Shown here one piece after another: positions 7,701 through 13,148 of a stretch of DNA of 64,000 bases. The stretch covers positions 533,001 through 597,000 of the forward strand of contig NC_016621.1 of assembly GCF_000236405.1 (NCBI RefSeq), read 5' to 3'. Position numbers and translations under genes: made by a program. The notes below the pieces were generated by a model. The model saw only the letters and a list, made by a program, of their open reading frames with translations, was not told the DNA's origin and did no database searches. Source of the stretch: Blattabacterium sp. (Cryptocercus punctulatus) str. Cpu. Lineage in GTDB: Bacteria; Bacteroidota; Bacteroidia; Flavobacteriales; Blattabacteriaceae. Each line of letters starts with the position of its first letter. The first letter of the stretch is position 1.

Positions 7701-8345
7701 ATGTCCTTAATTCTTAATTTAGAAACTTCTACAAAAAATTGTTCGGTAAGTATTTCCAAAAATGGAATATGTATTACATCTATAGAAGAATGTTCGGAAA
7801 AATATCTTCATTCAGAAAAATTACATACATTTATACAATATGCTATAAAAATTTCTAAAATTGATATAAATGATTTAAAATCAATTTGTGTTAGTAAAGG
7901 TCCTGGTTCTTATACTTCACTAAGAATAGGAATATCTGCCGCTAAAGGTTTGTGTTTTTCATTAGGGATTCCTTTATTATCATTAGATTCATTAACAATT
8001 ATGAGTCAAAAAATAGATATTAAAGATGGATTTTTATTACCTATGATACATGCAAAATCCGATTTTTTTTATACTTCCTTATTTAATAAATCTAAAAATC
8101 GGATAGCACCTATCTCTATAAAAAATATCAATGATCAATATTTCAGATTTATCACAAAAAATCAAAAAGTATATTTTTTTGGTAATGTAAATTTTCAAGA
8201 AAAAGAAAAAAGTTTATTGACAGATTATTTTCATTTTTTTTCTCATATTTATCCCTCTGCCATAGATATGTCTTTTCTTTCTTATGTAAAATTTTGTAAT
8301 AAAAAGTTCAATAAAATTGAAAATTTTATTCCATTTTATTTATAA
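7701..8345 (+). CDS. tsaB: tRNA t6A synthesis protein TsaB (YeaZ family)
   Basis: Non-catalytic partner of TsaD in making N6-threonylcarbamoyladenosine at position 37 of ANN-decoding tRNAs. The start at 7701 gives 214 residues beginning MSLILNLETSTKNCSVSIS, the usual opening of the family; an upstream in-frame ATG at 7533 would add 56 residues that overlap nadE on the other strand and have no family resemblance. SKGPGSYTSLRIGISAAKG is the ASKHA-fold signature. Its partner TsaD is encoded at 56437-57471. Confidence 0.93.
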   Translation: MSLILNLETSTKNCSVSISKNGICITSIEECSEKYLHSEKLHTFIQYAIKISKIDINDLKSICVSKGPGSYTSLRIGISAAKGLCFSLGIPLLSLDSLTIMSQKIDIKDGFLLPMIHAKSDFFYTSLFNKSKNRIAPISIKNINDQYFRFITKNQKVYFFGNVNFQEKEKSLLTDYFHFFSHIYPSAIDMSFLSYVKFCNKKFNKIENFIPFYL

Positions 8346-8404
8346 TAAATAAAATCTATTTTTTTTCTATTTATATATTATTAAGTAAAAATATATATTT
8401 TTTT

Positions 8405-9232
8405 GAATAGGATTATTAAAATTGGAACAAAACATAGTCCAATATAAGTTTATTAAGCTAGAAAAATCAAAATTTTTATTCAAAAAAAGGTTATTATTAT
8501 CGTTTATTTTTTTATAAAATATGAAGGATATTTAATTCAAAATATTCCTATTCATAAATTAAAAAAATCAGGTATTTTTACTAAAAAAAATTATTCAGGT
8601 TATGCTTTCAAGAGTAATTGATTTAGTTCTTTCAGTTTATTTAAAATAGATTAGTTTTTCTTATTTATTAAAATAAATAGTAGTATATTACAAAAAAATT
8701 CAATAATTTTTTTTTTTAAGATTCAAATATACATGCTATTACAGATACTGTAAGTCTTAAAAGAGATTTTTTATAAAAATTTTTATCCACATCATAATTT
8801 TGTAAATTATAAATATAAATACAAAATTAAAAAAACTCCGTTAAAATTATTGTAAAAAAAGCTATTTTAAAAAAATAGGATTGGAACGTTGAGGTATATT
8901 ACATAATTTATAGAAATTAAATTTTCAAATATTAAATTGAATGATAAATTAACGAAATTATATTATTTAAAAAAATGTAAAATATTAATTTTGAGTATTT
9001 TATAATATATATATATGTAAATCATAATAGGGGATCATGTAATTATTTATTAAAAATAAAATTACTTATTTTACAGGAATATTGTTCAATATAAATAGTA
9101 TGAATCAAATACAAAAACAAAAATAGGATATCATAATAATTTTATCGTAATAGAATGTTCGTAAGAAAATATTAGAATAAGGTTAGATGGAAATTTTATT
9201 GAAAAAAATCAAGGGAAAAAATATTTCATAAT
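8405..9232 (+). pseudogene. hemC: decayed porphobilinogen deaminase (hemC)
   Basis: This gap holds no open frame, but read across frames it carries the landmarks of hydroxymethylbilane synthase in the right order and at about the right distances: IIKIGTKHSP (near 8412), YEGYLIQNIPIHKL then KSGIFTK (8520-8585), TVSLKR (near 8750), PHHNFVN (near 8787), KIGLER (near 8873), CSI with IKYKNKNRI (9076-9125) and LDGNFIEKNQGKK (near 9184). Many stop codons and several frame changes interrupt it. No start remains. It sits between tsaB and trkH on the same strand. The identification is from motif order and spacing, not from an alignment. Confidence 0.85.
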
Positions 9233-9237
9233 AAATT

Positions 9238-10992
9238 ATGATCCAAATTAATTTCCGAAAATTATTACCGTTTTTAACTCCAATTATATTTTTATATATA
9301 ATTATTTCTTTAGGATGGAAAACTTCTATAAATACTTTTATTAATGTAGTAATACTTATTGTAATGATGTTAATATTAAGTTTTTTTCATTTTTTTATCC
9401 TTTTTGAAAAAAAATTAGATAAAGGATATCAATCTATGATATTCTTATCTTTTTTCGTTTTTATTCCCTCTATACTATTTTCTATGGGAAAATTTTTTTT
9501 TTTTAGTCACGAAACAATTACAGATGTAAGAGGGGTTTTATTAACGAGTTTAACTATATATATATTAATTCGCATTACCTATTTTATGCGAAAAATATAC
9601 GTAAAAATTAATAATCCTATTTTTATTTTTATTACTAGTTTTGTGTTTTTATCTTTTTTAGGATCATTATTTCTAATGTTACCATCATCAACCGTTAAAA
9701 AAATATCATTTATAGATGCATTATTTACTTCTACTAGTGCTGTATGTGTTACTGGATTAGGGGTATTAGATACTTCTAAAGATTTTACTTATTTAGGAAA
9801 AATTATTATTCTAACTTTGATAGAACTTGGAGGATTGGGGATTTTAACCGTAACTTCTTTTTTTAGTTATTTTTTTAGGGATGGTTTTTCTTTTAGAGAG
9901 GGTGTCTATATAAGCAATTTTTTGAATACAAAGACTACAAATAACGTTCTTTTTTTAGCTGTAAAAGTAGTTTTACTTACTTTAATAGTAGAAATAGTAG
10001 GAACTTTATTAATCTATTTGTCTATTAAGAACGAAAGGAGTATTATAGAATATGATAGTCCTTTATTTTTTTCTATTTTTCATTCTATATCTGCTTTTTG
10101 TAATGGAGGTTTTTCTACTCTTAATAGAGGTTTTTATTCAGAATCTGTAAGATTTAATTATTTATTCCAATTTATTATTGCATGTTTATTAATATTGGGA
10201 GGAATAGGTTTTAATATTTTATTTAATTTTTTTACATATATATGGTTAACGTTAAAAAAATATTTTTACAAAATTTTTAAAGATGAATATTTTAGATGTC
10301 CTGTACATATTTTTACTTTAAATACAAAAATTGTTTTATTTACAACTTTTTCTTTACTTTTTTTTGGAACTATTTTTTATTATATAAGCGAATATCATTA
10401 TTCACTTTCTGAACATTCTTCTATTTTTGGAAAGTGGATTATTTCATTTTTTTCTTCTGCTACATCTAGAACAGCTGGATTTCAAGTATTAAATATGGAA
10501 AAATGGACACCCTTAACTATCTTATTTACTATTTTTTTGATGTGGATTGGTGCATCTCCTGCTTCTACAGGTGGAGGAATTAAGACAAGTACTTTTGCAT
10601 TAGCATTAATGAATATTATCTCTTTATCTATAGGAAAAGATAGATTAGAAATTCAAAAAAAAGAAATTTCTTCAAAATCTGTTAGACTTGCTTTTGCCAT
10701 TATAATATTATCTCTCATTATCATATATATAAGTATTTTTATTATTCTTTTTTTAGATCCAAAAAAAGATATTTTATCCATTTCTTTTGAAGCTTTTTCG
10801 GCTTTTTCAACAGTAGGATTATCTTTAGGAATTACTCCTAATTTATCCAATGGTAGTAAGTTAGTTTTAATTACTTTGATGTTATTAGGAAGAATAGGCG
10901 TTTTTAATATTATGATAGGATTATTAAAAAGAAATAGAATAAATTCTTCTTATTATTATCAATATCCTCAAGGAAATATTCTAATCAATTAA
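9238..10992 (+). CDS. trkH: TrkH/KtrB-type potassium uptake protein
   Basis: Membrane channel subunit of a Trk/Ktr potassium uptake system. It has 584 residues with about ten or more membrane segments. The repeated pore (P-loop) signatures are visible: FTSTSAVCVTGLGVLD, then AFCNGGFSTL, SRTAGFQ and FSTVGLSLG, with the conserved glycines that line the filter. ASPASTGGGIKTSTFA is the region near the third pore. The regulator trkA follows after 6 bp, so the two form one unit. The N-terminal portion is long, as in other Bacteroidota TrkH proteins. Confidence 0.94.
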   Translation: MIQINFRKLLPFLTPIIFLYIIISLGWKTSINTFINVVILIVMMLILSFFHFFILFEKKLDKGYQSMIFLSFFVFIPSILFSMGKFFFFSHETITDVRGVLLTSLTIYILIRITYFMRKIYVKINNPIFIFITSFVFLSFLGSLFLMLPSSTVKKISFIDALFTSTSAVCVTGLGVLDTSKDFTYLGKIIILTLIELGGLGILTVTSFFSYFFRDGFSFREGVYISNFLNTKTTNNVLFLAVKVVLLTLIVEIVGTLLIYLSIKNERSIIEYDSPLFFSIFHSISAFCNGGFSTLNRGFYSESVRFNYLFQFIIACLLILGGIGFNILFNFFTYIWLTLKKYFYKIFKDEYFRCPVHIFTLNTKIVLFTTFSLLFFGTIFYYISEYHYSLSEHSSIFGKWIISFFSSATSRTAGFQVLNMEKWTPLTILFTIFLMWIGASPASTGGGIKTSTFALALMNIISLSIGKDRLEIQKKEISSKSVRLAFAIIILSLIIIYISIFIILFLDPKKDILSISFEAFSAFSTVGLSLGITPNLSNGSKLVLITLMLLGRIGVFNIMIGLLKRNRINSSYYYQYPQGNILIN

Positions 10993-10998
10993 AAAAAT

Positions 10999-11697
10999 AT
11001 GAAAATTATAATTATTGGGTTAGGAAATTTTGGAAGATCTTTAGCACTTAATTTAACAGATAACGGACATGAAGTTTTTGGAGTAGATCACAAAATGGAA
11101 AAAGTTGACTTATTAAAAGATCGTATAGCTAATGTAGTTTGTATGGATGCTAATAATGAATTAGCTTATAAAGTATTGCCTATACAACAAGCTAATTTAG
11201 GAATTGTTGCTATTGGAGAAAATGAAGGGTCATCAATAGTAACAACGGCGATATTAAAAAAATATAAAAATCTTAGAATAGTCAGTAGATCTTTATCAAC
11301 AATACATGATACTATATTAGAGGCTATGGGAATCAATGATGTAATTCACCCAGAACAAGATGCCGCTTATCGATTGACAAAACAAATATCTTTTAATTAT
11401 GCTTTAGATTATTTTAGAGTAGATAATAAACATTCTATTGCAGAAGTTTTTTCTCCATATTCCTTTAGTGGAAAATCAGTTAAAAGTCTTAAACTAACAC
11501 AAAAATATTCTGTTTCCTTAATTACTGTCATACGAGAAATTAAAAATTCTATTTCTTTCAATGAAAAATCTAAAAAAAAAGTGATAGGATTGGTTACTGG
11601 GGATACTATTTTACAAAAAGGAGATATATTGACAATTTTTGGATCTAATAAATCTATAATGAATTTTTTAAAAGATAAATTAACAAATCCTGATTAA
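10999..11697 (+). CDS. trkA: Trk/Ktr potassium uptake regulator (RCK domain protein)
   Basis: Cytoplasmic nucleotide-binding regulator that gates the TrkH channel. It has 232 residues: an RCK-N Rossmann domain starting MKIIIIGLGNFGRSLA (GxGxxG plus the acidic GVDHK turn) and a C-terminal RCK-C domain (about 140-225, ending in GDILTIFGS). This single RCK pair matches KtrA-sized proteins rather than the doubled E. coli TrkA. The downstream gap (11698-11873) before the convergent actF gene holds only AT-rich sequence with no open frame. Confidence 0.93.
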   Translation: MKIIIIGLGNFGRSLALNLTDNGHEVFGVDHKMEKVDLLKDRIANVVCMDANNELAYKVLPIQQANLGIVAIGENEGSSIVTTAILKKYKNLRIVSRSLSTIHDTILEAMGINDVIHPEQDAAYRLTKQISFNYALDYFRVDNKHSIAEVFSPYSFSGKSVKSLKLTQKYSVSLITVIREIKNSISFNEKSKKKVIGLVTGDTILQKGDILTIFGSNKSIMNFLKDKLTNPD

Positions 11698-11873
11698 AAT
11701 ACTTAAAAATATTCCATTTTAAATATAAAAAATCTATTTTAAATGATTAATTTATTTTTACTAGTTGTAATAATGGTATAAAAGGATTTTTATATAATTT
11801 TTAAAATTTTTTTTCAAAAAAATTAAAAATAATAAAACTATTTTTTTTATTTTAATTAAATATCTTTATTTTT

Positions 11874-13148
11874 TTACATATAAGGATATTTATATTTTTT
11901 ACTTTCTTGAAAAAAAGGATTTCCAATAAAATTGAGATTTTTTCTATTTATATTGAAAAATAATATATAAATAAAAATATTACCTATTAGTAATAAAGAC
12001 CCTATTTCATGTAATCCAAATTGTGGATATAAATGTTTATTTAAAATTATTTCTGGAGCTATTAAATTGTATATATCTATATAATGGCCAACGAGTAATA
12101 AAGAAGAAACTATAAGTACTATTTTTGTATTAATTTTGTTTTTACTACTCATCAAACCAAAAAAAGGAACCAAAAAATTTAGAATAATCATCCAAAAATG
12201 GATATTTCCATATAGTTCCTCTCTTTTCAAAAAGTGAATAACTTCTTCTGGAATATTTCCGTACCAATAAAGTAAAAATTGTGAAAACCAAAAATAGGTC
12301 CACAATAAACTACTAGAAAAAAGATATTTACTTAAATCATGCAAATGATTTTCATTAAATAATGGTAAACATCCTATTTTTTTTAAATAAATAGAAAGAA
12401 TAGTAATAGATCCAATACCGGTAACCATATAAGAGCTTAAAATATACCAACTAAATAAAGTACTAAACCAGTGAGGATTTAAAGACATAATCCAATCCCA
12501 TCCCATAAAAATAGATGTTATAGAAAAAAATATTATAAACATAATAGAAAAAAATTTTAATTTTTTATAATCTTTCCAAGATCTTGTTAGATTCAAAATA
12601 TGAGATGTTTTTTTTAATTTAAAATAAAAAAAATTCCAACCTATTATATAAATTAAACTTCTGATTAAGAAAAAGGGGATATTTAAAAAAGCTTTTTTAC
12701 TTGAAATAACTTTATCATACTTTAATAATGAAGTAGAATAAAATTGATTAATATCCATCCAATGAAAAATATGAATAATACCCATAAAATTTAATAAAAA
12801 AAATATTAAAATAAAAAAACATCCATATGGAATAAAAGAAGCTAATTCTTCTATAATAGGATGAATTATGATCGACCATCCAGATTTTGATACATATTGT
12901 ATTCCTAAAAATAATAAAGATCCTAGAGAAATAGTAGTAAAATAAAAAATAGCTATATATAACCCTAGCCAAGGTTGATTTTCTTTTTTTTCATCTTTTT
13001 GATATGAAACATTTTTTAAAAAAAAATATTTTTTTTGATTAAAATTTATTCTATTTAAAACAGGAATTTTATCAAAAAAAATAAGAAAACATCCTAATGT
13101 CATTAGAAAAAAAATTATTTTTTTTAATTTTTTAGAAAATTGATACAT
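11874..13148 (-). CDS. actF: alternative complex III membrane subunit ActF
   Basis: Quinol:cytochrome c oxidoreductase membrane subunit. It has 424 residues with around ten hydrophobic segments and the family-like stretch MGWDWIMSLNPHWFSTLFSWY, where a histidine and aromatics line a membrane helix, plus LWTYFWFSQFLLYWYGNIPEE. It is last in the actABCDEF order and 17 bp from actE. In many Bacteroidota cytochrome oxidase genes follow here; in this window the convergent trkA gene follows instead, so the oxidase must be encoded elsewhere. Confidence 0.9.
   Translation of the reverse strand: MYQFSKKLKKIIFFLMTLGCFLIFFDKIPVLNRINFNQKKYFFLKNVSYQKDEKKENQPWLGLYIAIFYFTTISLGSLLFLGIQYVSKSGWSIIIHPIIEELASFIPYGCFFILIFFLLNFMGIIHIFHWMDINQFYSTSLLKYDKVISSKKAFLNIPFFLIRSLIYIIGWNFFYFKLKKTSHILNLTRSWKDYKKLKFFSIMFIIFFSITSIFMGWDWIMSLNPHWFSTLFSWYILSSYMVTGIGSITILSIYLKKIGCLPLFNENHLHDLSKYLFSSSLLWTYFWFSQFLLYWYGNIPEEVIHFLKREELYGNIHFWMIILNFLVPFFGLMSSKNKINTKIVLIVSSLLLVGHYIDIYNLIAPEIILNKHLYPQFGLHEIGSLLLIGNIFIYILFFNINRKNLNFIGNPFFQESKKYKYPYM

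Follow-up and report, generated by a model that had tools for sequence, protein, structure and literature searches.

A ruined hemC between tsaB and trkH of a Blattabacterium genome, very probably a relic of sirohaem synthesis

What is the DNA that separates tsaB from trkH in Blattabacterium sp. (Cryptocercus punctulatus) str. Cpu? Between the end of tsaB (8345) and the start of trkH (9238), the longest open reading frame on either strand is 38 aa. An earlier reading of the letters (the sequence-only reading) had described the gap as lacking any open frame, which is correct, and as a full-length ruined hemC. Positions are given for the window, the 64,000-nucleotide stretch of DNA that was analyzed. 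The genome under study (G000; 609,561 bp, larger contig C2 of 605,745 bp) was compared with 48 relatives, designated by other G numbers, giving a sample of 49 Blattabacterium genomes; the window spans bases 533,001-597,000 of C2.

The identity of the gap is clearest from a relative that retains the gene. In G012, an intact hemC of 311 aa occupies the same position between tsaB and trkH and matches both PF01379 (E=4e-58) and PF03900 (E=1e-13). Window positions 8403-9234 align end to end with the full 936 nt of this gene at 83.1% identity over 798 aligned bases. The alignment score is 2181, whereas none of 200 dinucleotide shuffles exceeds 664 and none of 114 further 895-bp segments taken elsewhere in the window exceeds 652; the similarity to HemC is far beyond chance. 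A DNA profile built from the eight intact hemC genes recovers the same region as two collinear pieces on the + strand (E=3.6e-56 for model positions 1-578 and E=6.3e-19 for 736-930). A search of the G000 genome with PF01379 gave no match; the protein-level signal alone has thus decayed beyond the reach of a routine family search, and nucleotide alignment to relatives was used instead. A blastn search against a plasmid collection returned nothing useful. The sequence-only reading had also proposed looking at the tsaB-trkH interval of related symbionts, and an intact hemC lies there, in the order tsaB-hemC-trkH, in eight congeners (G012, G017, G023, G030, G035, G062, G065 and G069). With full-length collinear homology, an orthologous position, inactivating lesions and a lost codon-position constraint, 8403-9234 is a hemC pseudogene whose two ends are both present (Table 1).

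The damage is extensive. Relative to the G012 gene, 25 indels have added 34 nt to the G000 copy and removed 138 nt; 19 of them shift the frame, and 11 new in-frame stops precede the natural end. Stops and frame changes run over the whole length, as had been claimed. The further claim that no large deletion had occurred holds in that the relic is nearly full length with both ends kept, but not for the 138 nt lost, which include deletions of 48, 41 and 21 nt. In E. coli HemC, Asp84 is the catalytic aspartate. The HSLKDVP motif, lost from the G000 copy with the 48-nt deletion, is the one that holds this residue, as established for the E. coli enzyme. At the cofactor-cysteine site, the alignments show the codons to be replaced, and the relic is left with neither the catalytic Asp of HSxKDVP nor the cofactor Cys of a functional porphobilinogen deaminase. 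Of seven peptide landmarks proposed earlier, five are confirmed: IIKIGTKHSP (8412), KSGIFTK (8565), TVSLKR (8747), PHHNFVN (8787) and KIGLER (8872). The other two, CSI (9083) and LDGNFIEKNQ (9183), fall in homologous HemC DNA but were read out of frame; at these places the alignment gives ILFN and MEIL..KI.

Table 1. Features of the tsaB-trkA region and its flank in G000 (window coordinates).
Feature	Position	Strand	State	Evidence
tsaB	7701..8345	+	intact upstream neighbour	ORF; orthologue adjoining trkH in 49/49 congeners
hemC pseudogene (porphobilinogen deaminase / hydroxymethylbilane synthase)	8403..9234	+		end-to-end alignment, profile matches
Junction of 48-nt deletion	8622..8623	+	codons lost for IAVHSLKDVPTKLPEE, motif carrying the catalytic aspartate; HSLKDVP gone	alignments
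Approximate junction of 41-nt deletion (exact position aligner-dependent)	8944..8946	+	PSPGQG region lost; 21- and 10-nt losses further on	alignments
trkH	9238..10992	+	intact downstream neighbour	ORF; 90% identity to G012 TrkH
trkA	10999..11697	+	intact	ORF; 7/8/29 codon-position differences vs G012
hemD (uroporphyrinogen-III synthase) 5' stub	11704..11827	+		nucleotide alignment to G012 hemD region, score 482

The time of inactivation can be bracketed on the tree of TrkH+TrkA, in which G060 is the sister of G000 (94% identity in the two proteins, support 100/98) and G012 branches next. The hemC of G060 is also ruined, and both sisters carry the same codon-239 stop and the same 2-nt deletion. 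Substitutions in hemC at codon positions 1/2/3 number 10/12/10 on the branch shared by G000 and G060 and 29/35/22 on the G000 branch, compared with 6/3/10 on the G012 branch; for comparison, differences between G000 and G012 amount to 30/19/76 in TrkH and 7/8/29 in TrkA. The shared lesions and the flat codon-position pattern indicate that hemC died after the split from G012 and before G000 and G060 parted, and the same two observations bear out the earlier claim that inactivation is not recent. Dates based on endosymbiont 16S place the eastern American Cryptocercus groups 18-24 My apart and the Asian and American ones up to 59-78 My apart (PMC4553549). If the hosts of G000, G012 and G060 are all Cryptocercus, hemC would have died tens of millions of years ago, a figure that is only indicative.

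Loss of hemC is common in the genus: the gene is broken or gone in 41/49 genomes. The best tree from TrkH+TrkA requires 11 independent losses, and a minimum of 6 remains with weak forks collapsed. Ten relics (G015, G018, G022, G029, G031, G061, G066, G068, G070 and G071) keep part of the 3' end adjoining trkH and have mostly lost the 5' end. Several of these come from one clade, and the pattern may reflect shared descent. In G071, the TrkH match itself changes frame partway, which may be an early lesion of trkH or a sequencing error.

The genes whose presence accompanies that of hemC point to the pathway it served. An intact frame for the sulfite reductase CysI (PF01077) is found in precisely the eight hemC-intact genomes, with a fragment in G010, and CobA (uroporphyrinogen-III methyltransferase, TIGR01469) exceeds the cut-off in precisely the same eight. 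A second HemD, adjoining trkA, occurs in these eight and in G010, and G060 and G071 keep decayed traces of it. The co-occurrence is all-or-none: hemC is intact in 8/8 genomes with cobA, the adjacent hemD and cysI and in 0/41 without them (Fisher p=2e-9, with relatedness ignored). When kinship is taken into account, 5/5 supported independent pairs agree (sign test p=0.0625, the lowest value attainable with five pairs). Judged from gene content, hemC is very probably a member of the sirohaem and sulfite reductase module, being intact only where cobA, the adjacent hemD and cysI are present. Two kinds of match were taken to be other members of these families and not counted, since strains that lack hemC or cysI have them too, namely weak TIGR01469 matches and a HEM4 (HemD-family) match elsewhere in the chromosome of 47/49 genomes. 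The HEM4 protein of G000 is encoded at C2:267723-268325, and nearly all congeners have one, including those without a sirohaem or haem pathway.

The rest of the module has decayed as well. In G012, the cys cluster has the order cysH-D-N-E-K-cobA-cysJ-cysI-sirC (names assigned from homology and order), with sirC carrying PF13241 and PF14824. The cluster is complete in G012 and the other seven hemC-intact genomes. In G060 it consists of pseudogenes, most cys and sirohaem genes still being visible as such, and in G000 it is almost all deleted: cysH, cysD, cysN, cysK, cysI, cobA and sirC are undetectable, cysE is a scrap and only cysJ is open. Of the hemD of G000, the remainder beyond the 5' stub is deleted, and at a junction near 11828 the sequence rejoins that found downstream of hemD in G012; the stub lies between trkA and a convergent gene at 11874. 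The sequence-only reading had the right gene, while sirohaem (rather than haem) membership and the ruined neighbour hemD had escaped it. In the G000 lineage, every gene of the module was damaged either already in the ancestor common to G060 or soon after.

An independent stage of decay is seen in G010, which belongs to a different clade. Here hemC, cobA, cysI and the trkA-side hemD are all broken or fragmentary: cobA is down to 30 codons, cysI is halved and cysD was not detected in this genome, but hemC is broken only by one 1-nt deletion, and its remaining differences from G017 (30/7/44 over the codon positions) still show constraint. In G010, hemC is apparently among the last members of the module to break. 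In G012, a run of 11 A in the trkA-side hemD contains a single frameshift, and the other sirohaem and sulfite genes of this genome are all open; the frameshift represents a first step of pathway loss, a gene rescued by slippage or an assembly error.

HemC is common to the haem and sirohaem pathways, and the relic could instead be a leftover of haem synthesis, in an ancestor that made haem until the host supplied it. The window encodes haem-dependent cytochromes, and Blattabacterium is listed as receiving haem from its host (PMC9603385). However, a companion-gene search that covered hemA, hemB, hemE and hemH found each in 0/49 genomes, positive controls being detected; neither G000 nor its relatives have these companions of haem biosynthesis. 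In the eight intact genomes, hemC is nevertheless under purifying selection (pairwise dN/dS 0.16-0.35), and a haem role could not have kept it selected after hemA, hemB, hemE and hemH were lost. Their absence everywhere while hemC stays selected in eight genomes argues that hemC is not a haem relic, and its presence tracks cysI and cobA. A haem origin is thus very unlikely.

Even less probable is that the relic still functions, either translated with the help of slippage or recoding, or retained because trkH uses it as a regulatory or RNA element. Such a role could account for its persistence at nearly full length although the cys cluster is deleted, and for the relics of other genomes that keep mainly the 3' part adjoining trkH. 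Yet 19 frameshifts, many stops, the missing catalytic and cofactor motifs and substitutions spread flatly over codon positions speak against a protein, and the relic has no Rfam match at E<=1. Its 3' end is no better conserved than the rest (identity 0.78-0.81), which argues against a trkH promoter; many of the relics with a 3' part belong to one clade, and in other congeners trkH is preceded by gaps of just 3-120 bp. That an assembly or sequencing error hides an intact hemC is improbable in the extreme. Indel errors arise easily in AT DNA rich in homopolymers, and the single frameshifts in the G010 hemC and the G012 hemD may be of this kind, but the G000 copy differs by dozens of substitutions in a neutral pattern and by multi-base deletions, shares lesions with another assembled relative, G060, and comes from a genome that has also lost the dependent cys genes.

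The hemC relic is therefore very probably that of a sirohaem pathway gene, which decayed together with hemD, cobA, sirC and cysI after the loss of sulfite reduction. No member of the genus appears able to make porphobilinogen, and from this gene absence we infer that the compound would be supplied by the cockroach host, although we know of no porphobilinogen transporter. HemC, HemD (encoded beside trkA), CobA and SirC (from the cys cluster) would then convert porphobilinogen to sirohaem for the sulfite reductase CysI. Assimilatory sulfite reduction was presumably lost first, in the ancestor of G000 and G060 after its split from G012, freeing the module from selection. With hemC, hemD, cobA, sirC and cysI rendered useless, their joint decay would have followed, leading in G000 to an almost wholly deleted cys cluster, a hemD cut to a stub and a hemC remaining at nearly full length. 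Host porphobilinogen is not a new idea: a model of the German cockroach strain already requires it and links it to sirohaem (PMC3819652), and it also appears in another cockroach-strain model (PMC3287516). What is added here is genus-wide comparative support and the relic. In the literature searched, no paper was found that names both Blattabacterium and hemC, nor one that gives the joint loss of hemC, hemD, cobA and cysI in its present form.

The gene that stands apart is cysJ, which is present in 49/49 genomes, its partner cysI being intact in eight only. In G000, it lies outside the window (C2:255987-257666) and differs from its G012 counterpart by 47/29/77 over the codon positions, like functional neighbours. 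In eight genomes (G007, G014, G020, G024, G026, G033, G036 and G063) only the C-terminal FAD/NADPH (FNR) half of CysJ was detected, open in most, and G002 and G068 have its two halves in different frames. The retention of CysJ without CysI, and of the FNR half alone in eight genomes, suggests a CysI-independent role, possibly as a ferredoxin or flavodoxin reductase. An isolated cysJ was noted earlier in the Periplaneta americana strain (PMC3287516). A broader proposal, in which we place about as much belief as doubt, is that porphobilinogen, HemC, HemD, CobA, SirC and CysI form an orphan, host-fed pathway kept or lost as a unit, with hemC among the last to break (as in G010 and G000) and CysJ alone escaping, its FNR half having another job.

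Such joint loss resembles the "domino" pathway-wise gene loss of obligate insect symbionts, in which the genes of one pathway are likewise lost jointly and repeatedly in separate lineages. The general effect of pathway-wise gene loss was reportedly described by Kinjo et al. in MBE in 2021. Within the genus, the intact hemC genes include those of the Blattella germanica and Mastotermes darwiniensis symbionts (putatively G069 and G035), which have the same order tsaB-hemC-trkH-trkA-hemD and collinear sequence; these copies are open and under purifying selection, whereas that of G000 is a pseudogene. In the sulfate assimilation cluster of Blattabacterium (cysHDN-E-K-cobA-cysJI-sirC) and its sirohaem module (PMC2768785, PMC3819652, PMC6039017), hemC would be the first bacterial step; by contrast, G000 has only cysJ open, the rest being deleted or ruined. 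Another insect symbiont, Serratia symbiotica SCc, is likewise predicted to begin its tetrapyrrole pathway from host porphobilinogen (PMC3213167), although there the proposed product is haem and in Blattabacterium it would be sirohaem.

The locus illustrates how a stretch that defies annotation in a reduced genome can be identified as a particular dead gene, and its death dated by comparison with sister genomes, with hemC assigned to a sirohaem and sulfur module rather than to haem synthesis. The genomes form a graded series for measuring how fast, and in what order, a pathway collapses; in it the module is open in G012, ruined in G060, mostly deleted in G000 and freshly broken in G010. The host-porphobilinogen step moves from a model prediction in two strains to a testable comparative pattern across the genus. 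The loss of hemC is ordinary symbiont erosion, one episode in the stepwise shrinking of these genomes, but unusually well documented, and the value of the case lies in its clean pathway context and its graded decay series.
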